Source: Candidatus Ozemibacteraceae bacterium (GTDB taxonomy: Bacteria; Muiribacteriota; Ozemobacteria; Ozemobacterales; Ozemobacteraceae). From it: a DNA stretch of 46,759 nucleotides. The translations under genes were made by a program, and so were the position numbers. The DNA lies in NCBI GenBank assembly GCA_937998695.1, contig CALLCO010000089.1:1-46759 (forward strand). Direction: 5' to 3'. Positions 13,382 to 24,491 of the stretch are shown piece after piece. The notes beneath the pieces were generated by a model that saw only the letters and a program-made list of their open reading frames with translations, ran no database searches and was not told the origin of the DNA. Numbering within the stretch: the first letter of the stretch is position 1; each line of letters opens with the position of its first letter.

Positions 13382-13570
13382 GGGAAGAATCCAGGGCAAT
13401 CGCATTAAATATTTCGCGCTGGAAGCCCGTTTCCCAGTCTCCCTCTCTGTACGCTTGAAAAATTGATGCGGGTTTCCAACGAGGGCGAGGTACGGCAGTG
13501 TGCGCGCGGTTTTTGAGCAGCCCCACTTCCAGAGATGTACGGTTTAGTGCGATTGCCCTGGGGAAGAATC
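13382..13570. mobile_element. MITE-like element, copy 1, with 10-bp target duplications
   Basis: The element is 13392-13560 (169 bp). Its ends are inverted repeats of 18 bp with one mismatch: CAGGGCAATCGCATTAAA on the left and CAGGGCAATCGCACTAAA on the inverted right. GGGAAGAATC flanks it directly on both sides (13382-13391 and 13561-13570), a perfect 10-bp target duplication. It differs from copy 2 (24313-24481) at two bases. There is no transposase; an approximately 54-codon open frame inside has no start of its own. The 10-bp duplication suggests mobilisation by an IS4-superfamily-like transposase encoded elsewhere. Confidence 0.9.
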
Positions 13571-13650
13571 TAGATGGCCGAGCTTTCCCCCGGGTTTGGG
13601 GGCTTCCTCCCATGTGCCTTGAGTCAGTCCGGATTCGTTGGTGGGTCCTA

Positions 13651-13840
13651 GGGTCTGTCGGAAGAATCGGGTTTCGCTCCCCCCCCGGTGCGTAGCGCCC
13701 CTGATCTGGTCGAAATCTCCGAATGGACGGTGCATCAAGGAAGCTGTGAGCCTATTGCATGAATCGGTTTTTCGGTTTTTGCTTGTCGCGTACATAACAC
13801 CACTGATTCGATCGGCATCTCCGAATGGACGGCAGATGAA
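13651..13840. repeat. Dispersed repeat R2, two divergent tandem copies
   Basis: A 38-bp block at 13701-13738 recurs at 13803-13840 (29 of 38 identical, core ATCTCCGAATGGACGG). Next to each, read on the minus strand, is a further stretch (13651-13709 and about 13745-13815) that matches 29986-30042 on the plus strand: CCAGATNAGGGGCGCTA followed by a CGAAAAAC-GATTCA region. It looks like a mobile or hairpin-type intergenic repeat that has decayed. Confidence 0.55.
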
Positions 13841-14198
13841 AATGGGATGTTTTGGGCGTTCGTGCAACGGGCTCTCGTCCGACTTGGCGCGGGTTTGCTA
13901 TGTGTGGTACGTCCGAGTGGCGGTTTTTCGTGCGCCGGCAACAGGAGCGCCGGTGACGCGGGCAGCGTGGCCCGGTCGATTGGCTGCCTGCCCTTGGCTG
14001 ACAACGCCCCCCCTTCTCCGGCCAACGTTGCGAGGTGCCAGGGCCTTCGGCCACCCATCCCCACGGGCAGATACCATCGTCGCCATGGGGAAGGTGCCCG
14101 ATTTTCTGCTTTGGTTCGCCAGCTTTCTGGCAGGATTGGCCACGCCTCCTGAGGATGTTTCCCTCCTCCAGGCCCTTTTATCTTTTCCACTTTGTTCA

Positions 14199-14214
14199 TG
14201 TTTCACGTGGAACA
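14199..14214. promoter_or_regulatory. parS: parS site (ParB-binding centromere)
   Basis: TGTTTCACGTGGAACA is exactly the reverse complement of the Bacillus subtilis-type parS consensus TGTTCCACGTGAAACA. ParB loads here, spreads as a CTP-dependent clamp and recruits ParA and SMC. The site is intergenic. Chromosomal parS sites cluster around oriC in most bacteria, so this region is probably origin-proximal. Confidence 0.85.
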
Positions 14215-14398
14215 CTGCCGGCAACGCGTCCGTGATACGAAGAGAAACGTGTCCCGAATGGGGGACAAGGTGGCGGTGGGCGGTCAGGCCGAGGACGGGG
14301 TCTGGGGAACTGCCAGCTCGTGCCCCTTGCCGCCCTGGCCAAGAAGGAATCGGCTCGCCGGAGATCTGGACCTTGCCGCGGCGTGGCGAGGGCAAACG

Positions 14399-15217
14399 CT
14401 ACTCGAACACCATCACCGGCTGGACATACTTTCGGACGATGGCCTGGCCGTCTTTCGACAAGACGAACTCGATGAATTTCGACAGATCGGGGTTGGGGTG
14501 GTCGTCGCGATAGACCAGCACGAAGGGCCGGCCCAAGGGATACTGACCGAGGCTGAGAGTCTGCTGGGTGGGCAGGACGCCCTCGATCGCCAGGTACCGG
14601 GTCAGGCCCTTGTCGCCGACCATGGCGGCGAAGGTGATGGCGGCGGGGTTGACGGCGACGTATTCGAGATTTTCCTGATGCGTGGGGAAGGCGAAGGCCG
14701 GCGAGGCCAACGGCTGGCCGCCCATCACCACCTCGCGGAACTGTCCGACCACCCCGCCCTCCTCGCCCTGGCGATGCAGGGTGACGATCGGCAGGTCTGG
14801 GCCCCCGACTTGTTGCCAGTTGGTGATCCGGCCGGCGAAGATCTCGGCGACCTGGGCCAGAGTGAGGCTGGCGACCGGGTTGTCGGGGTGTACCGCGACC
14901 ACCAGGGCGTCGTAGCCGATGACCCGGTTGGCCAGCCCCGACTCGAGCTCGATCTGGGTCAGCAGGCGCGACAGGCCGCCGAGGGCCGCCTTGCCGTCCT
15001 TGACGGCGGCGAACCCCTGGTTGGAGCTGGTGGCCCGGATCTCGCCAAAGGCGATGCCCGTGCTTACCGTAAAGGCTTTGGCCAGTTCGGGCAGCAGGGC
15101 CTGGCCGATCGAACTCGACCCTTCATACGACAATTCGGCGCTGACCGCGCCGGTCAGGCCCGCCACCTGTAGAAGCCCCACCAGGATGAGATAGACCCAC
15201 GCACGGTTTCGGATCAC
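14399..15217 (-). CDS. PstS-like periplasmic substrate-binding protein
   Basis: 272 aa from GTG 15217, which follows AAGGAGG and overlaps the upstream stop by four bases (GTGA). Signal peptide: VYLILVGLLQVAGLTGAVSA. The mature protein matches the phosphate-binding PBP-like family: LSYEGSSSIGQALLPEL, ATSSNQGFAAVKDGKAALGGLSR, GYDALVVAVHPDNPVASL, and QVAEIFAGRITNWQQVGG, all PstS hallmarks. It is shorter than classical PstS and no pstCAB transporter genes are adjacent, so it may bind phosphate for sensing or act as an orphan binding protein. Co-translated with the STAS-like gene. Confidence 0.85.
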   Translation of the reverse strand: MIRNRAWVYLILVGLLQVAGLTGAVSAELSYEGSSSIGQALLPELAKAFTVSTGIAFGEIRATSSNQGFAAVKDGKAALGGLSRLLTQIELESGLANRVIGYDALVVAVHPDNPVASLTLAQVAEIFAGRITNWQQVGGPDLPIVTLHRQGEEGGVVGQFREVVMGGQPLASPAFAFPTHQENLEYVAVNPAAITFAAMVGDKGLTRYLAIEGVLPTQQTLSLGQYPLGRPFVLVYRDDHPNPDLSKFIEFVLSKDGQAIVRKYVQPVMVFE

Positions 15218-15615
15218 GATCGGACCTCCTTCCATTCCGGCGTTTCCGGGCCGGTCAGCCACCCGATCGCGGCTTCGGGCTCGTAGAAGACGAAGAAGCG
15301 CACTTTGTAGCGATCGGATTGCGGGGCCAGAACCCGCGAATACTTACCCGGGGCGGGGTTCTTCTCGGAGATCAGCAACGCGAATCGCCGCCCCAGAACG
15401 TGACGGTGGGCTCCGAAAAACGCGGCCAGGCTGGCCAGTTCGCTGGGGGTGCGCCGGCCGGGGGTTTCCCGGGCGTCGATCAACACCGGCAACCCCGGCC
15501 GGAACGTCGGATCATGGAAGGCCGCTTCAAAGCCTTCCCGGGTCTCATCCACGCTCTGGTGGCCGGACATCCGGTACCAGATGAAGCCCTGTTCGAACGT
15601 ATAGGTGATGGTCAT
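15214..15615 (-). CDS. SpoIIAA/STAS-like 133-aa protein
   Basis: Starts MTITYTFEQGFIWYRMSG. The layout (N-terminal strand, then SVDETREGFEAAFHDPTF, a LPVLIDARETPG strand-turn, and a helix with an AFFGAHRHVLGRRFALLIS segment) is that of the SpoIIAA-like/STAS superfamily, in which 'VLIDAR' is the diagnostic strand. There is no obvious phosphorylatable Ser in the antisigma-factor position, so a structural or regulatory role is as likely as partner switching. Its stop overlaps the start of the PstS-like gene, which implies translational coupling. Confidence 0.65.
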   Translation of the reverse strand: MTITYTFEQGFIWYRMSGHQSVDETREGFEAAFHDPTFRPGLPVLIDARETPGRRTPSELASLAAFFGAHRHVLGRRFALLISEKNPAPGKYSRVLAPQSDRYKVRFFVFYEPEAAIGWLTGPETPEWKEVRS

Positions 15616-15704
15616 CTCTCACCTCCAGGCGGGTGGTCGCGCGGGCGAACCCTGCCTGTCAGGAACTCCCTCCCCGCCGTTTAGGGATGATAGCACGGCG
15701 AGGG

Positions 15705-15896
15705 TCACTCGTGCAGGCGCCCCTTGGCATACGGTCCGACGTAGAGGGCTTGCGGTCGCGACATGTTCAGACCGCCCAGTCCCGCGTCGCAGTCGAAGAT
15801 ATCGACGATTCTTCCATACCCCCCGCTTGCTTCCCCTGGTACCTGAGTTTCAATCGTCGGGCAGTCACTGAACGTTGGCCGGAGAGTGCTGGCCAT
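15705..15896 (-). CDS. Possible 63-aa small protein
   Basis: ATG 15896 begins MASTLRPTFSDCPTIETQVPG and the frame ends at TGA 15705. The composition is balanced (Asp, Ile, Tyr, Phe, Gly; IVDIFDCDAGLGGLNM), unlike the Arg/Pro/Ala-rich shadow frames around it. It lies 89 bp upstream of the STAS-like gene on the same strand. The ribosome site (AGGGAG) abuts the ATG too closely, so the start is uncertain. No known family recognised. Confidence 0.35.
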   Translation of the reverse strand: MASTLRPTFSDCPTIETQVPGEASGGYGRIVDIFDCDAGLGGLNMSRPQALYVGPYAKGRLHE

Positions 15897-15948
15897 CTCC
15901 CTGTCTCTGGTTCTGATATAGTGATAGGAAATCTTACAGGGGACTTGT

Positions 15949-18852
15949 ATGGTAGAGGAAACTCCTTCGACTCCCCCGCCGGCGACCGTTTCGGCACCGC
16001 CCGGCACGCTCGATCTGAACGCCTGGCTGGCCTTCAGCCTCGCCTCGCCCGAAGAGGCCGAGCGCCGGCTTGCCCTCGACGAGATCGGCTTCCAGGGGCT
16101 GGCCGATGCCTTCGCCGACGACCTGCGCCGGCTGGCGGCCACCGATCCGGCCGAAGCCTGCCGCACCTTCGCCGCGCGTCTGCTCGAGCGGGCCCGCCAG
16201 CCGGCCGCGGTCCGGCCGGTCGAGAAGATCGAGTTGACGCCCGAACGCACCCGCGCCCTCCTCGAGGTCGGCGAGGATACCCTGCAGCAGGTCGTCCTGC
16301 GCTCGCTGCGCAAGGCCCCGGCCCAGGAGATCCTCGACACCTGGCGGGCCCATCTGCCCGGCGAAGAGAACCCCGAGGTCATCGGGGTCGGCCTGACCCT
16401 GCTGGCCCGCCACGGCAAACCCGAGGATGCCGATTTGGCCATGCTGTTCTCGTCCCATCCGTCGGTTCCCGTCGTCAAGGCGGCCATCGATCTGTTCCAC
16501 GGCCAGAACCCCGGCCAGTTCAAGGAGGGCATCGTCCGGTTCCTGGTCTCAGACGACCTCGAGATCCGGTTGCACACCATCCGGAAGCTGCGCACCTTCG
16601 ACCCGCGCGAGGCGCAGACCTACCTGCGGTCGCTGCTGGCCGCCCGCAACCCCTTCATCCGGCAGCGGGCACTGCGCGAACTGCTGCTCGTGCCGTTCGC
16701 CGAGAGCGAAGCCCTCTATCTCGCCTACCTGGCCGCCGAGCCCCTTCCCCTGTTGCTGGTGCTGGCCGGCTCGGCGGTCGCCATGAACCCCGCCCCCGAC
16801 CTGCCCCAGAAACTCTACGACGTCTTCTTCTCGGCGCGCGATCTGCGGGCCCGCATCCTGCAACTGGTCATCAACCAGCTCCTGGCCAGCATCAAAGCCT
16901 CCGGCATCCTCGACGTGCCGATCGAGACCTACCTCGAAACCCTGAAGGCGACCCTCCAGAAGCGCAAACTCTGGATCACCGCCCGCATGGCGCTCGCCGA
17001 CCTCGACCATGCCGACCCGGAGGTGCGTATTGCCGCCATCGGGAAGCTGAGCCAGGCCCGGCAATTTCCCAAGGTGCAGGACGCCTTGGAACAGCGCGAC
17101 GCCGTCGAGACGGTCGAGGAGGTGCGGGAAGCCCTCGCCCAGGCCCTCGGCCGCGAGAAGGAATCCTTCACCATCGCCGGTTTCCGGGCCAAGATCAAGG
17201 ATGGCAGTTTCTACGGGCTCGACCCCAAGGTGCAGAAGAAGTTCGTCGGTACCATCACCGATGAAGATACCTTCCGGGATGCCCGCGACATCATCGGCAT
17301 CGCCGTGGTGGCTGACCTCGACCGCGGGGTCTTGCTGCAACTGCTCGACCGCATCGCGGCCCACGGCCGGCAATGGGACCCCAAATGCCTGTTCCGCTTC
17401 CTGAAAAGCGAAGATCCGGGCATTCTGGCCGGTGCCTTGCGGGCCATTGGCCGTCTCGATCTCGACTCCATCGCCTACGAGATCCCCAACCTGCTGCGCC
17501 ACGACGATTTCCGGGTCAAGATGGCCGCCCTCGAATTGTATCTGGTGTCCGACAAAACCAGCGCGTTGCAGTATCTGATCGGCATGCTGAAAGCCCCGTC
17601 GGTCAAGATCCGCAAGAATGGATTGTCGCTGCTGGCGACGGTCGATTACCCCTCGGCCGAACGGATCCTGCTCGACTACTTCCCCGTCGAGAAGAACCTC
17701 GAGGCCAAACTGCAGGCCGGATTCATCCTGGCGGCCAACCCCACCCTCGAAGGCATCCAGGTCTTGTATGCTGGGTGCCATGACGACCAGGGGGTGGTCC
17801 ATCCCGCCTTCCAGGATCTGTGGGAAGGCGCCCTCGAGGCGGCGGTCCCTCTCCTCGCTCCCGATGCCGCCACCCTGCTGGCTGGTTGTCAGACCCGCCG
17901 CACCGCCGAACAGACGGCGGCCGCGGCCGAACAGCCGACCTACGCGTTCAAGAAGGTCACCGCCTCCACCAACAAGAACCTGTTCGCCGAACAGGATTCC
18001 CAGCCCGCCGAAGGCCTGGGCGCCGAGCTGCGGGTTCCCGAACCCCAGGAGGCCTTCGACAAGGCCGCCGGGGTGGTCGAGCGCTACCGCATGCCTCTCG
18101 CCGCCGCGGCCGTGGCCTTGCTGGCCGGCGGGTTATGGTGGCTGGCCGGCGATCGCCTCCTCGGTCCCGGCAGCGGTAGCGGGTCGGCCGTTGTCCATGA
18201 ATCGAGGGCCAACCGCATGGAAGAAGGCAGCCGCGATGTCCCTGCCATGGTGGCCGGTCGGCGCGGGGGTCCCACCTCCTATGTCAGCGGGCGCGGCTAT
18301 GCCCAGGTCATGAAGGCGATGGATACCGAGCGGCAGTCGATATCCGAGGAGTTCCACCGCAAGAACAAGCAGGCCCTGCGCGAGGTCCTGATGCAGATGC
18401 TCGACGACCCCAACTATAAGGGGTACGGCGAGTTCTATCTCAACGAGAACTGTGCCAAGGGCATGGAAGCCCTCGATCAGGGCGACCTGCCCGAAGCCCG
18501 GACCTCCCTGCGCAAAGCCCTCGAAGACCCCTCCATCTCGGAGGAAGCCCGCGTCATCGTCTGCCAGGGTCTGATGCAGATCGGCTTCGAACTGGGCGAC
18601 AAGGAGTCCCTCCAAAAGGCTCTCGAAACCTTCCTGGCCACCATCCCAGAGGGGGAACTCCCCAAGGGATATGATAAGATGAGTGTGAAGGAGGCTTTTG
18701 CGGGCCTCGACCGGCTGCACGAGGTGACCCCCGAGCAGTACAAGGTAATCCTGCAGACCCTGGCCCAGAAGCATCCCGGCAAGGTTCCCCCGGCCATGCA
18801 GGAACAGATGCTCGAAGGGTTCAAACAGATGCAGAACCGTTTCAAGAAATGA
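15949..18852 (+). CDS. HEAT-repeat protein with a C-terminal membrane anchor and TPR-like tail
   Basis: 967 aa. ATG 15949 follows AGGGGA. Residues about 20-640 are consecutive HEAT-type helical pairs (for example VRIAAIGKLSQARQF, IRLHTIRKLRTFDPREAQTY, VKMAALELYLVSDKTSA, VKIRKNGLSLLATVD). A single membrane segment lies near 715-735 (MPLAAAAVALLAGGLWWLAG), preceded by a linker, so the HEAT scaffold faces the cytoplasm if inserted N-in. The final 200 residues are helical with TPR-like pairs (GMEALDQGDLPEARTSLRKA). It is the first of four tightly spaced genes with three pilin-type genes, suggesting a scaffold or inner-membrane assembly factor for that machine. No catalytic motif seen. Confidence 0.8.
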   Translation: MVEETPSTPPPATVSAPPGTLDLNAWLAFSLASPEEAERRLALDEIGFQGLADAFADDLRRLAATDPAEACRTFAARLLERARQPAAVRPVEKIELTPERTRALLEVGEDTLQQVVLRSLRKAPAQEILDTWRAHLPGEENPEVIGVGLTLLARHGKPEDADLAMLFSSHPSVPVVKAAIDLFHGQNPGQFKEGIVRFLVSDDLEIRLHTIRKLRTFDPREAQTYLRSLLAARNPFIRQRALRELLLVPFAESEALYLAYLAAEPLPLLLVLAGSAVAMNPAPDLPQKLYDVFFSARDLRARILQLVINQLLASIKASGILDVPIETYLETLKATLQKRKLWITARMALADLDHADPEVRIAAIGKLSQARQFPKVQDALEQRDAVETVEEVREALAQALGREKESFTIAGFRAKIKDGSFYGLDPKVQKKFVGTITDEDTFRDARDIIGIAVVADLDRGVLLQLLDRIAAHGRQWDPKCLFRFLKSEDPGILAGALRAIGRLDLDSIAYEIPNLLRHDDFRVKMAALELYLVSDKTSALQYLIGMLKAPSVKIRKNGLSLLATVDYPSAERILLDYFPVEKNLEAKLQAGFILAANPTLEGIQVLYAGCHDDQGVVHPAFQDLWEGALEAAVPLLAPDAATLLAGCQTRRTAEQTAAAAEQPTYAFKKVTASTNKNLFAEQDSQPAEGLGAELRVPEPQEAFDKAAGVVERYRMPLAAAAVALLAGGLWWLAGDRLLGPGSGSGSAVVHESRANRMEEGSRDVPAMVAGRRGGPTSYVSGRGYAQVMKAMDTERQSISEEFHRKNKQALREVLMQMLDDPNYKGYGEFYLNENCAKGMEALDQGDLPEARTSLRKALEDPSISEEARVIVCQGLMQIGFELGDKESLQKALETFLATIPEGELPKGYDKMSVKEAFAGLDRLHEVTPEQYKVILQTLAQKHPGKVPPAMQEQMLEGFKQMQNRFKK

Positions 18853-18895
18853 AGCGTCTCCTAGACAGGGCCGGCCCCCACGGGAGGTACACGTG

Positions 18896-21619
18896 ATGGA
18901 ATGGCAACGGCGAACCCGACCCCGCTGGCGGCGGGGCACCGCCTTTCTGATCGTCCTGGCCGTGGCGGCCGTCCTCATCGTCATCGCCCAGGCCCTGACC
19001 GAGACCGGCACCGCCACCCGCCGGCAGACCATCCGGTCGGCCAACGACCAGAAGGCGATGGACTGCGCCGAAGCCGCCACCAACCTGGTCTACCGGCTCA
19101 TCGCGGAAGACATGAACGACCCCCAGATGATCTACGACGCCATCCGCCTGCGCGGCCTGAATACCGACAGCTGGTACTGGAAGTTCCGGATACCGCAACT
19201 GATGGGCGGGGCCAACGTCGATCCCGTCTCGTTCAAGAACAGCAGCATCTCGCACGCCGACACCTCGGGCAACGGGTTGGGCCTCGAGATCAGCGTCGGT
19301 CCCCAGATGCTGGCCAAGCTGCGCAAGGAGTACAAGAACCAGGATTTCGCCGATCTCGAGGAACTCTACCGTGACATGGGCGGCGAGGTCACGATCAAGA
19401 GCGAGGCCAGCATCAAGAAGATGTTCGGCATTCTCCCCAAGAGTAACCAATACGAGATTCCGGGCATCACCTTCGACCTCACCGAGATCAACAACCTGAC
19501 CGACCTCAACGTGGGCAACTTCCTCAACTCGATCATGAGCGACAAGGAGTTCAAGATCGACATCACCGAGCAGTTGCTCGGCTACATGCCCGACATCAAC
19601 TTCGGCGACGTCGTCTACAGCGTCATCAAGAATATCAACATCAACCTCGCCCTCTATCCCGTGGCTGTCCCCATCCCCATCGGGCGGCTGGTCGGGGCCC
19701 TGCTCAAGGGCATGATCAGCAAGCTGGGCTCGGGGGCGACCCTGAAGGGGTTCCTGCGCGAAACCCTGCTGAAAGACCTCAAGCTCGAGATCAACCTCAC
19801 CGATTTCAAGAACTCGATCCGCAGCAAGATCCTGGGTATCCTACCCGACGAGATCCGTACGCTGGCTGGGCAAGTCAACTGGGGGGTGACCGTCGAGAAG
19901 GTTGGCATCTTCGAGGTCAAGACCACCGTCGAATACCAGCCGCAAGGCCCTCGGGGGCCCATGATCAGAAAGGTGCTGTTCTCGCAGCGCGATTTCCGGG
20001 TAGCCGATGTGCAGCCGATCGCGCCCGACCACACCTTCTTCGTGGCCAACACCGCTCTGTTGTTCGAAGACGAGGCGGTCGAAAATGCCGGCGGTTTCAA
20101 GGGCGACTCCCAGATCAACTGGGCCGACGGCATGGGTTCGCTGGTCTGCCACAACATCACCTTCTTCGACACCGAGCTGTTCAAGAACCTGAAGAACTTC
20201 TTCGGCGCCATCGGCAGCGGCGACGTCGAGAAGCTGGCCAACAGCTACTTCCTGCCTGGGCGGGTGCGGGTCAACGGCACCAAGCCCATGGAGGTGCGGC
20301 TCAACTTCGGCCTGCTCGACTTCCTGGGCAGCCAGTACACGTTCACCGATGCACTGCGCGGCTGCGAGGTGGCGGCCCTGCTCATCAACAACAAGGACAA
20401 GAACAAGCATCGCGAGGTCGAAGAGAACGCGGTCGACAAGCCTGCCAAGTTGAAGACGCCCGATCCGGCCGACCACGCCTTCATGCCCACCATGGGCGAG
20501 AGCCTCTATGGCACCCCGGTCGAGAGCCCGCCACCCCTGGGCGGGTGGGTGGCGCTGTTCAATATCCTCGAGGGATATCTCGAGCGGTTCGGGGCCGGGA
20601 AGGAGATCGGCATCAGCGCGGGCGACTTCATGAGCGTGCCGATCAATGCCCTGAAGCTGCCGCACTTCGACTGGCCGTGGCTGACCGACGGGTTCATCTG
20701 GATCCCGGTGCCGAAGTTCTACAACAAGACCTACTTCTTCGGCGATTTCCATTGCGAGTTCCCGCTCTCGCTGCGGGTCGAGGGCAATCTCTGGAAGCGG
20801 TTCTCGCGGGTGCGCCTACCAATGATCCGGATCTTCATTCCCCTCAACTGGCTGTTCGGTTGCCCCAACGTCGACATCACCCTGCCGCCGCTGCCCTTCC
20901 AGACCAACGTCGTCGAGCCGTACGGCTTCTGCTCGCACCCGCCGCTCGAAAAGAGCACCGGCGAAGTCGATGCCGAGCAGATGAAAAAGGAGTGGGACCC
21001 GAAGGACAAGAAGAACCTGCCCGCCAATATCTACTCGCCGATGCAGTATTTGAAGAAGGCGAGCTACTACTACGCCACCACCGCCGATTTCTCGAAGGAT
21101 ATCGAGAACCGCAGCACCGAAATGGATGTCCCGGGCGTTGGCAAGAAGATGGTCTTCAACTGCGACGGGGTCACCTTCGTCGAAGGCACCGACGGGCAGG
21201 GTCTGTTCCTGCGCAATGATCTGTGGGTGTGCGGGCGGGGCATGATCGTGGCGGCCGGCAACATCCACCTCAAGAGCATCCGGCGGGTCGACCCGCCGGG
21301 CGGGCCGCCGACCATGCTGTCGATCGTGGCCCGCAACGGGGCCCTCATCAACAACGGCAAGAACGTCGTCGAGGCTTGTCTCTACGGCGACCGCGGCCTG
21401 ATGAACCCCTTCTACGGCAGTCTGAAGATCTACGGCAACCTCGTGGTCAACCAGTTCGTGCGCAGCGAATGTCAGGGCAAGATCGACATCCACTTCCAGG
21501 CCAACCGGACCCACAGTTCCCTGCTCTCGTATTTCAAGGACATCGCGAAATACGACCCGACCCGCTACCAGGCAACCTTCAGCAAGAAGTGGCGGGCCTA
21601 CGAATTCCTGAAGAACTGA
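18896..21619 (+). CDS. Very large PilX-like pilus/secretion protein
   Basis: 907 aa from ATG 18896; GTG 18893 is an alternative, with GGGAGG at 18882-18887. The N-terminus (RRGTAFLIVLAVAAVLIVIA) followed by QTIRSANDQKAMDCAEAATN is the PilX/GspK-like pattern: a hydrophobic helix and then a helix with an AEAA motif. PilX and GspK proteins are normally about 150-350 residues; here about 840 further residues form an otherwise unrecognised ectodomain with many aromatic and Asn-rich beta segments and a C-terminal part (GMIVAAGNIHLKSIRR, LSIVARNGALINNGKN) resembling a right-handed beta-helix. Probably a minor pilin or tip-associated protein. 40 bp after the HEAT gene. Confidence 0.72.
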   Translation: MEWQRRTRPRWRRGTAFLIVLAVAAVLIVIAQALTETGTATRRQTIRSANDQKAMDCAEAATNLVYRLIAEDMNDPQMIYDAIRLRGLNTDSWYWKFRIPQLMGGANVDPVSFKNSSISHADTSGNGLGLEISVGPQMLAKLRKEYKNQDFADLEELYRDMGGEVTIKSEASIKKMFGILPKSNQYEIPGITFDLTEINNLTDLNVGNFLNSIMSDKEFKIDITEQLLGYMPDINFGDVVYSVIKNININLALYPVAVPIPIGRLVGALLKGMISKLGSGATLKGFLRETLLKDLKLEINLTDFKNSIRSKILGILPDEIRTLAGQVNWGVTVEKVGIFEVKTTVEYQPQGPRGPMIRKVLFSQRDFRVADVQPIAPDHTFFVANTALLFEDEAVENAGGFKGDSQINWADGMGSLVCHNITFFDTELFKNLKNFFGAIGSGDVEKLANSYFLPGRVRVNGTKPMEVRLNFGLLDFLGSQYTFTDALRGCEVAALLINNKDKNKHREVEENAVDKPAKLKTPDPADHAFMPTMGESLYGTPVESPPPLGGWVALFNILEGYLERFGAGKEIGISAGDFMSVPINALKLPHFDWPWLTDGFIWIPVPKFYNKTYFFGDFHCEFPLSLRVEGNLWKRFSRVRLPMIRIFIPLNWLFGCPNVDITLPPLPFQTNVVEPYGFCSHPPLEKSTGEVDAEQMKKEWDPKDKKNLPANIYSPMQYLKKASYYYATTADFSKDIENRSTEMDVPGVGKKMVFNCDGVTFVEGTDGQGLFLRNDLWVCGRGMIVAAGNIHLKSIRRVDPPGGPPTMLSIVARNGALINNGKNVVEACLYGDRGLMNPFYGSLKIYGNLVVNQFVRSECQGKIDIHFQANRTHSSLLSYFKDIAKYDPTRYQATFSKKWRAYEFLKN

Positions 21620-21631
21620 GGCGGGAACGGC

Positions 21632-22099
21632 ATGCGGAGCGAGCGTGGCATCACCCTGATCGAGGTCATTCTGGCCCTGTTCATCCTGGCGCTGGTGTTG
21701 GGGCCCTTCCTGCGCGGGCTGGTCGGCCAGGCCCAGGTCGGCGAAGATACCGAGAAACTGCAGATGGCCACCAAGATCCTGCAGTCGATGAAGGAAGAGG
21801 TCTGCACCGTGCGGTTCCGTGATTTCTGGGCCTTCGCCAGCAAGAACAAGCCCGACCAGGAAGGATGGTATGTGCTCGACGACATGTTCTGGCCTCATTC
21901 GAAGGACGAGGTGATGTCCTATCAGAAAAAATACCGCGATTTCGAGGCATCCGGCACCTTCAAGTTCGTCAAGCGGCAGGGCCGGCCGGCCGAGGATCGC
22001 AGCATCGTCTTTTTCCGGGTCTTCGTGGCCTGGTTCCAGCCCAATCAGGGCAGGCAGGTGCGCTCGACCAGCATGATCGTGGTCGAGCCGAAATCCTGA
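21632..22099 (+). CDS. Type IV prepilin-like protein (GspI/PilV type)
   Basis: 155 aa. The leader MRSERG is cut before I7, giving ITLIEVILALFILALVLGPF with Glu at mature position 5, the class III prepilin signature; Ile instead of Phe at +1 is seen in minor pseudopilins. A short globular domain follows (KEEVCTVRFRDFWAFASKN, ending STSMIVVEPKS). It starts 12 bp after the PilX-like gene, matching the order of minor pseudopilin operons. Confidence 0.85.
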   Translation: MRSERGITLIEVILALFILALVLGPFLRGLVGQAQVGEDTEKLQMATKILQSMKEEVCTVRFRDFWAFASKNKPDQEGWYVLDDMFWPHSKDEVMSYQKKYRDFEASGTFKFVKRQGRPAEDRSIVFFRVFVAWFQPNQGRQVRSTSMIVVEPKS

Positions 22100-22130
22100 G
22101 ACATCGCACCGAACAGGGGGAGAGAAACCC

Positions 22131-23270
22131 ATGACGAAAACGACGACCACGAGCGGGTTCACGCTGACCGAGGTCATGGTGGCGGTCCTGGTCTTCGCCC
22201 TGGCCGCCGGCGGGATGTATGCCTTTCTGCAGCACGGCAACCGCCAGAGCATGAAGGCCTACACCCGGCAGGCGATGGTCACCCAGGCCAACACCGTGCT
22301 GAAGGCCATGCAGGACGACTTCCGGATGGCGGCCAGTTCCAGCCTGAAGTTCAACGAGCAGAACGGGGAGGTCACCCTCCAGCAGAACCACGGCGGCGAC
22401 AAGGTCGCCAACATCACCTACAAATGGGAGAAACCCCGCCTGACCCGCAAGGTGGTCTTCAACGGGTCAACTTCGTTGCGCACGCTCAGCACCGCGATGA
22501 ACGGGTTCGCCATCGAGACCAAGCCGCGGCCGTCGGTCAGCGAGGACGACGACGACAACACCCCCGAACAGGTGGTCATCAAGCTGAGCCTCGCCGCCAC
22601 GGTGCCGGGCGAGCGCGAACCCCTGGTGCACGACCAGCACGCCATGGCGACCATGCGTGAGGTCAGCTCGTTCAAGTATGACCCGCACTGGCGCGACGTC
22701 GGCAATCTGAAGGGGGCCTTCAGCACCTACGGCAACCTGCTCAACAGCATCGCCCAAGACGCCAAACTCCTGGTCGAGGATATCGGCAAGACGCTCGAAC
22801 AGACCGTCAAGGACGCCGAAAAGGCCGCCCAGGACGCCCTCAACAAGCCGAAGGCCAACCTCGAGGAGACCAAGCGGCAACTGCGCAACGCCCTCAGCGA
22901 TATCAAGAACGCCGACCTTGACCTGTCGGCCGCCATCAAGGAGTGCGAGCAAAGCATGAAAGATCTGCCCGAGGAGATCTTCGAACGTGAGTTCGGCCGC
23001 ATGGGCACGTGGTTCGCCGACAAGGGCGAAGCTCGTGACCGGGTCGCCGCCGAGTTCCAAAAGATGAAGACGCTCGAGCAGATGGACTACGGGAAGCTCG
23101 AGCGCGCTGCCGGAAGTTTCCGCCTGAAAGACACCTTCAAGTCGATCTTCGACAACAAGAAGGAGTCGCTGCAGCAGCAGATCAGGCTGGCCAGCAATAA
23201 GAAGAAGCTCGAAGACTTGCTCTCCCAGGTCGAGGCCAAGGGGATTGAAGGCGGCGGCGACGGCGGCTGA
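22131..23270 (+). CDS. Prepilin-like protein (GspJ/PilW type) with long coiled-coil extension
   Basis: 379 aa. The leader MTKTTTTSG precedes FTLTEVMVAVLVFALAAGGM with Glu at mature position 5. Residues about 30-190 fit a GspJ/PilW pseudopilin (MVTQANTVLKAMQDDFRMAA, then KANITYKWE-like strands). From about 195 to 375 the protein is a charged, Leu/Ala/Glu/Lys-rich helical tail (LLVEDIGKTLEQTVKDAEKA, ETKRQLRNALSDIKNADLDL), a probable coiled coil absent from ordinary minor pseudopilins. Start 31 bp after the GspI-like gene with a GGGGGAGAG ribosome site. Last gene of the cluster. Confidence 0.8.
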   Translation: MTKTTTTSGFTLTEVMVAVLVFALAAGGMYAFLQHGNRQSMKAYTRQAMVTQANTVLKAMQDDFRMAASSSLKFNEQNGEVTLQQNHGGDKVANITYKWEKPRLTRKVVFNGSTSLRTLSTAMNGFAIETKPRPSVSEDDDDNTPEQVVIKLSLAATVPGEREPLVHDQHAMATMREVSSFKYDPHWRDVGNLKGAFSTYGNLLNSIAQDAKLLVEDIGKTLEQTVKDAEKAAQDALNKPKANLEETKRQLRNALSDIKNADLDLSAAIKECEQSMKDLPEEIFEREFGRMGTWFADKGEARDRVAAEFQKMKTLEQMDYGKLERAAGSFRLKDTFKSIFDNKKESLQQQIRLASNKKKLEDLLSQVEAKGIEGGGDGG

Positions 23271-23344
23271 GGCCCTGCCCACCACCCACGTCCCCTCTCC
23301 TGGAGGGAGGCATCAGGGGCCTTCCAGGTCGAGGGCGCGTTCCC

Positions 23345-23776
23345 TCAGGGCTGCAGGAACAAGGTCTCCGGGACCGAGAACCGTCTGGCCAGGAGATCGG
23401 CGTGGCGCTTGTTCAGCCGGCGTTTCCCGCTGAGGATCTCGGAAACGACTCCCTGGCTGCCGATTTCGGGAAAATCCCCCTGGCGGAGGCCGTGCTCCTG
23501 CATGAGAGCTCGCCAGACTTCCACTCCGGAGACCGGGGGGAGCTGGTGGTGAAGACGGTCGTAGTCCTCTATCAGGACTTCCAGGATCTCCAGCAAGCCG
23601 ACCAGGGGATGGTCGGGGTCATCGTTCACCGCGTCCGCCAGGAACTCCATGACCTTGACCACCAGTCGATACTGGTGTTTCGAGCGGATGCGGGAAAGCG
23701 GAATCTTCTGGGTCAGGGTGGTCCAGGCGGACAGGATGCCTTCCCCGAATGGGATGGCTTTGGTCATACTACTCAT
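23345..23776 (-). CDS. higA: HigA-type antitoxin
   Basis: 143 aa from ATG 23776, which overlaps the end of higB by eight bases; GGGAG lies nine bases upstream. The N-terminal 90 residues are helical with FLADAVNDDPDHPLVGLLEI, as in long HigA antitoxins, and the C-terminal helix-turn-helix is clear: MQEHGLRQGDFPEIGSQGVV, SEILSGKRRLNKRHADLLAR. It should neutralise HigB and repress the operon. The toxin-first order is typical of higBA. Confidence 0.85.
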   Translation of the reverse strand: MSSMTKAIPFGEGILSAWTTLTQKIPLSRIRSKHQYRLVVKVMEFLADAVNDDPDHPLVGLLEILEVLIEDYDRLHHQLPPVSGVEVWRALMQEHGLRQGDFPEIGSQGVVSEILSGKRRLNKRHADLLARRFSVPETLFLQP

Positions 23777-24074
23777 GTTTCCAATCTCCCTTGTCATACT
23801 CGGCGTGGGTCAGGACGAAGCGGATGTAGACCCTGGCCCGGTTGAAATGGATGGAGCAGACCACCCGGTATTTGTTGCCCCCGACGTTGAAGATGAAGCG
23901 TTCCTGGCCGGACGGCAACCTGACCCTGTCGACCGCGGGAAAGACCGAGCGCAGGTCGGCGAACCCCTGGAAGGGGCGGGCGGCCACCAGGTCGAACCAT
24001 GCCCGCATCGGTGCCTGGCTTTCCGGGTGTTTGCCGACGAAGGCCCGGATCGCCCCCCAGGAAATGATGTGCAT
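23769..24074 (-). CDS. higB: HigB-type mRNA interferase toxin
   Basis: 101 aa from ATG 24074, which follows AAAGGAC. It matches HigB_toxin of the RelE superfamily: MHIISWGAIRAFVGKHPES, WFDLVAARPFQGFADLRSVF, then FIFNVGGNKYRVVCSIHFNR and VYIRFVLTHAEYDK near the end. Cuts mRNA on the ribosome in known members. Immediately followed by higA with an 8-nt overlap. Confidence 0.9.
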   Translation of the reverse strand: MHIISWGAIRAFVGKHPESQAPMRAWFDLVAARPFQGFADLRSVFPAVDRVRLPSGQERFIFNVGGNKYRVVCSIHFNRARVYIRFVLTHAEYDKGDWKHE

Positions 24075-24097
24075 GGGTTTGTCCTTTCTCTCAAAGT

Positions 24098-24113
24098 ATC
24101 TCAAAAATGAGAT
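24098..24113 (-). promoter_or_regulatory. Candidate HigA operator
   Basis: ATCTCA-AAAA-TGAGAT is a perfect inverted repeat with 6-bp arms, 24 bp upstream of higB, in the only AT-rich patch of the region. This is where an autoregulating antitoxin would bind. Confidence 0.5.
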
Positions 24114-24128
24114 TTTCGCAAGAGCGCC

Positions 24129-24199
24129 GGGAATCCGGTGTCGGGAATCCGGAATCCGGGGACGAATCCGCGGCGGAACCCGGGGGGAATCCGGGGACG
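24129..24199. repeat. Clustered GGGAATCCGG repeats
   Basis: GGGAATCCGG occurs at 24129-24138, 24143-24152 and 24185-24194, and GGAATCCGGGGACG at 24151-24164 and 24186-24199. The gap 24075-24765 holds these repeats, the operator and the second MITE, but no gene I can support. Confidence 0.55.
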
Positions 24200-24302
24200 T
24201 GATACGAAATCAGGAGAGGTGAAGACTCCGCGGGCCTTGTTTGCAGGGTTCGCTGGGGGCGCACGATGCGGAGAGGGGAGGCGCGCCCGCCGGGCCGGCT
24301 TG

Positions 24303-24491
24303 TCTGGAAACCCAGGGCAATCGCATTAAATATTTCGCGCTGGAAGCCCGTTTCCCAGTCTCCCTCTCTGTACGATTGAAAAATTGATGCGGGTTTCCAG
24401 CGAGGGCGAGGTACGGCAGTGTGCGCGCGGTTTTTGAGCAGCCCCACTTCCAGAGATGTACGGTTTAGTGCGATTGCCCTGTCTGGAAACC
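24303..24491. mobile_element. MITE-like element, copy 2, with 10-bp target duplications
   Basis: The element is 24313-24481 (169 bp), identical to copy 1 except for two bases, with the same 18-bp terminal inverted repeats. It is flanked by TCTGGAAACC at 24303-24312 and 24482-24491, a different 10-bp target duplication from that of copy 1. This proves independent insertion. The near identity implies recent movement. Confidence 0.9.

Follow-up and report, generated by a model that had tools for sequence, protein, structure and literature searches.

A newly seen ISAs1-type MITE family in the genome of a Candidatus Ozemibacteraceae bacterium

The DNA analysed here (the window, 46,759 bp) is the entire contig C89 of the genome G000, and it carries two almost identical 169-bp repeats. 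The question raised by this locus is whether these repeats arrived by transposition, which type of transposase moved them, and whether the host makes use of them.

The window copies and their family

Copy 1 (13392–13560) and copy 2 (24313–24481) are both on the plus strand. They differ at two positions, each a private departure from the family consensus, from which either copy is one change away. Both begin with the left terminal inverted repeat CAGGGCAATCGCATTAAA (13392–13409 and 24313–24330, plus strand) and end with the right one, CAGGGCAATCGCACTAAA (13543–13560 and 24464–24481, minus strand). Reading of the sequence placed copy 1 between two copies of the 10-bp target duplication GGGAAGAATC (13382–13391 and 13561–13570), and copy 2 between two copies of TCTGGAAACC (24303–24312 and 24482–24491). 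The 169-bp element has no room for a transposase gene. The sequence-only reading was exact to the base in its coordinates, in the 2/169 differences and in the two different perfect 10-bp duplications. The 18-bp length that it gave for the terminal inverted repeats was also right, and the two ends match as inverted repeats at 17 of 18 positions. It further held that the duplications proved transposition; two perfect duplications were strong support, and "proves" became fair only after further sites were added. A HigB-type toxin gene of a toxin–antitoxin pair (PF09907) was observed at 23769–24104 of the window on the minus strand, and the MITE of site 2 lies ~200 bp upstream of it.

Across the genome that contains the window (324 contigs, 4.53 Mb), 17 further matches to the 169-bp repeat were found, most with 94–99% identity. 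With up to three mismatches allowed, the end motif was found 42 times in the genome vs. once for a reversed-pattern control. These two results excluded a chance origin. The group was named family A, and it comprised ~15 insertion sites after halves at contig ends were merged. The halves on contigs C324 and C175, which have the common flank GAGCCTGTT, and those on C204 and C275, which have the common flank GCCCGCACTC, most likely represent one insertion per pair, split by the assembler; no partner half was identified for the contig ends at C91 and C129. In total, family A accounts for six contig ends of the G000 assembly, all of which fall within its sequence.

Both flanks could be read at 13 insertions, and 9 of these had exact duplications of 9–10 bp. 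Seven sites (C89 twice, C309, C294, C74, C59, and C204/C275) had exact 10-bp duplications, all different; the C91 site and the insertion across C324/C175 had exact 9-bp duplications. The copy in C23 showed a 10-bp duplication plus one extra base, and the flanks of the copy in C153 agreed at 8 of 10 duplication positions. No flanking duplication was found at the young copies in C164 (G000:C164:19626-19794) and C186 (C186:17182-17348), where it may have been removed by later deletion or by recombination between copies; a check by eye saw no reciprocal flank swapping among the copies without duplications. Among eight duplications, the only hint of a target motif was a weak preference for C at the last position (6/8), which is too few to claim.

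The fragmented assembly, with six contig ends inside the repeat, could suggest that segmental duplication or faulty assembly, and not transposition, produced the copies. Against this, the similarity breaks off precisely at the inverted ends, the flanks are unrelated and carry site-specific 9–10 bp duplications at nine sites, and nesting with a different repeat family is seen. We regard an artefact or segmental duplication as scarcely conceivable. The family copies, the end motif and the site-specific duplications agree with the earlier description of a MITE with recent and independent transposition. The mean pairwise identity among 13 young copies was 96.7%; most had 0–2 changes from the consensus, and four had 5–9. 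This spread indicated that activity extended over time, with a recent peak.

A second and commoner MITE-like family of ~116–128 bp, with the ends GAGCCTGTTGC, was also observed, at 13748–13875 of the window, at G000:C59:6048-6163 and in ~40 other places. It gave 43 BLAST matches, and its end motif (up to three mismatches) was found 278 times vs. 11 in the control. Several of its copies seemed to have duplications of ~4–5 bp. One copy is nested in the 169-bp MITE at C59, and at C324/C175 the 169-bp MITE lies at the edge of another. A third short repeat (L009:1388-1490, G000:C74) occurs as pieces of ~35–100 bp in ~15 other places of the genome, with 75–96% identity.

An ISAs1 element with the same ends

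The sequence-only reading had predicted a parent element elsewhere in the genome, and the search that it proposed for the ends and for a full-length IS, carried out by end-motif pairing, found one of 1231 bp at G000:C306:3942-5172. This IS has CAGGGCAATCGCACTAAA at both ends and is bounded by its own 10-bp duplication, GTGAACTTCG. The right end of the MITE is identical to both IS ends at 18 of 18 positions, and the left end at 17 of 18. The transposase contains the Pfam domains PF13808 and PF01609 and matched the NCBIfam model for ISAs1 (NF033564) with 258.9 and 128.5 bits in two frames (cut-off 70). It reached only 23.1 bits with the IS4 model (cut-off 115), and IS4 proper was rejected; the suggestion of a possible IS4-superfamily parent was close and is refined here to ISAs1. 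The solved structures searched contained no match for this transposase. The ends start with CAGGG, and the inverted repeat and the ~10-bp duplication are within the published ISAs1 ranges. The C306 IS seems to disrupt a gene (L041:1164-1559) whose product starts MTMNLRGKNILVVGGTSGIG and is probably a short-chain dehydrogenase.

No single intact frame of the C306 copy covers the D-D-E triad. The transposase coding sequence breaks into two frames at a stretch of seven C; one of them holds the conserved D motifs and the other the HWxxEN motif. The copy may be dead, or the split may be a sequencing or assembly error. It was the sole full-length ISAs1 copy found in the incomplete G000 assembly. Homologous elements in related genomes, with transposases 48–65% identical and some with open frames, had CAGGGC-type ends, which in four of them lay within exact 10-bp duplications. 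This tied such ends to the ISAs1 transposase family.

We consider it highly probable that the repeats belong to the type I MITEs, non-autonomous and mobilised by an IS, here one of the ISAs1 family. The split frame of the only full-length copy, the lack of detectable similarity to it beyond the ends, the missing duplications at C164 and C186, and the 8/10 agreement at C153 count against ISAs1 mobilisation. A different transposase, perhaps of IS4 type, with similar end recognition and 10-bp duplications could be proposed as the mobiliser, since the duplication length is not specific alone and the C306 transposase looks broken. However, three results make this very unlikely: the MITE shares an end at 18/18 positions with the genome's own ISAs1 element, other ISAs1 elements carry related ends and duplications of 10 bp, and the C306 transposase scores far under the IS4 cut-off.

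In the mechanism proposed for the ISAs1-type MITE, its 18-bp ends would serve as recognition ends for a DDE transposase of ISAs1 type. A full-length ISAs1 element, either the C306 copy before its damage or a relative that was lost or is unassembled, would provide the enzyme in trans; after cutting at the ends, the enzyme would join the MITE to target strands offset by ~10 bp, which would produce the 9–10 bp duplications. The data show the ends that the MITE and the IS have in common, the duplications, the number of copies, their two age layers and the absence in relatives; mobilisation in trans and the source IS copy are inferred.

Interior, older layer, and host context

No similarity of the MITE interior to the C306 IS was detectable beyond the ends. 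A plain internal deletion of this IS was rejected as the origin of the MITE, with local-alignment scores within the shuffled range. We infer that the MITE either is an old derivative with an interior altered past recognition, descends from some other ISAs1 element, or consists of foreign DNA that two ISAs1 ends enclosed.

An older layer, family B, consists of six decayed copies (C277, C220, C293, C204, C295, and C123) of 169–172 bp that are ~77% alike. One of them was already matched by the family A BLAST (E 5.6e-8). The old copies in C293 and C295 retain the 10-bp duplications CCACCCAGGG and CCGGCCGCAG, respectively. The interior of family B is homologous to that of family A, with ~60% identity and local-alignment scores of 20–37 vs. 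a top shuffled score of 14. An 18-bp block, GGATTTCTGCTCTGGCAG, was invariant in all six old copies (L057-L062); a run as long was seen in 0 of 20,000 column shuffles, which ignore the common ancestry of the copies. Repeated activity in this species would have left the old layer B and the young layer A, with survivors mainly between genes. The two layers can be dated only relatively, not absolutely, because no close relative carries the element. It is possible, though doubtful, that the MITE lineage outlives its helpers: a ~170-bp ancestor would have been amplified in two waves within a single species, and the interior, with the subterminal 18-bp block, would have been kept for transposition (as an enhancer or second transposase-binding site) or for the host.

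Nearly all insertions were intergenic, and no young one clearly breaks a gene, as judged from uncurated gene calls by G+C per codon position. The young copy in C294 lies ~20 bp inside a predicted reading-frame start, and the old copy in C220 overlaps a weak gene prediction. This position between genes, together with single strands whose folding is stronger than that of shuffled sequences (z −4.0 and −3.4) and the block invariant in old copies, would suit a repeat that was spread by transposition and kept by selection chiefly because it is useful to the host, as a regulatory RNA, terminator or binding site. However, the inverted ends themselves form the long stem of the fold, and an intergenic bias is expected simply because harmful insertions are purged. 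A conserved RNA was rejected, as the interior showed hardly any covariation and nothing in Rfam matched; a consensus scan of copy 2 revealed no promoter- or terminator-like site, and the element is absent from congeners. We saw no evidence for a host function, and selection for host use is, in our judgement, more improbable still than mobilisation by another transposase.

Distribution and comparison with known systems

Family A had no match in 95 other genomes, and the two-ended pattern was not found in 39 other genomes of the phylum. Neither the family-B BLAST nor the profile model gave a match in 23 other genomes of the bacterial family, and none was obtained in the viral contigs or plasmids searched. 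Within the genomes searched, the MITE family is thus found in one species only. Window site 1 and the C74 site were compared with the congener G001, in which the neighbouring genes are 81–88% conserved. The orthologous gaps are shorter and without the MITE, and they are too diverged for a base-exact empty site. Fixation of the element in related genomes, which the sequence-only reading had named as evidence against it, was not observed at these two sites. The same ends also enclosed unrelated interiors in two MAGs, one of a Longilinea (150 bp, exact duplication GCGTTATATG) and one of the Mariprofundaceae (161 bp, 10-bp duplication, one mismatch). These two cases suggest that MITEs arise repeatedly around ISAs1 ends.

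No description of an ISAs1-mobilised MITE was found in the literature searched, ISfinder being outside its scope. The ISAs1-type MITE family described here is newly seen but ordinary as an element; what is new is the host. It offers dated copies in two age layers and a candidate parent, from a phylum represented by 40 species in the collection searched.

The ISAs1 family has been described with inverted repeats of 14–22 bp starting CAGGG and 10-bp direct repeats (PMC11946415), and ISArsp11 has CAGGGCTGATGCAAAGTCG and a 10-bp direct repeat (PMC6305408). The MITE agrees with this family in its CAGGG ends, 18-bp inverted repeats, 10-bp duplications and a parent above the cut-off in the same genome; it differs in being a 169-bp element without transposase, whose interior is unrelated to the IS. 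MITEPye1 of Paracoccus yeei is a type I bacterial MITE attributed to IS1182, with 1–3 chromosomal copies (PMC11578231). Like the present family, it is short and mainly intergenic, has inverted ends of a known IS type and direct duplications, and can fold into a long hairpin. However, the probable mobiliser here is ISAs1, and ~15 copies plus an older layer are present instead of 1–3. For Anabaena sp. 90, whose genome also has an ISAs1 element, the MITEs were assigned to type II, with no matching IS (PMC3542288). They are likewise many short, mostly intergenic inverted-repeat elements alongside ISAs1, whereas in the genome studied here the matching IS is present.
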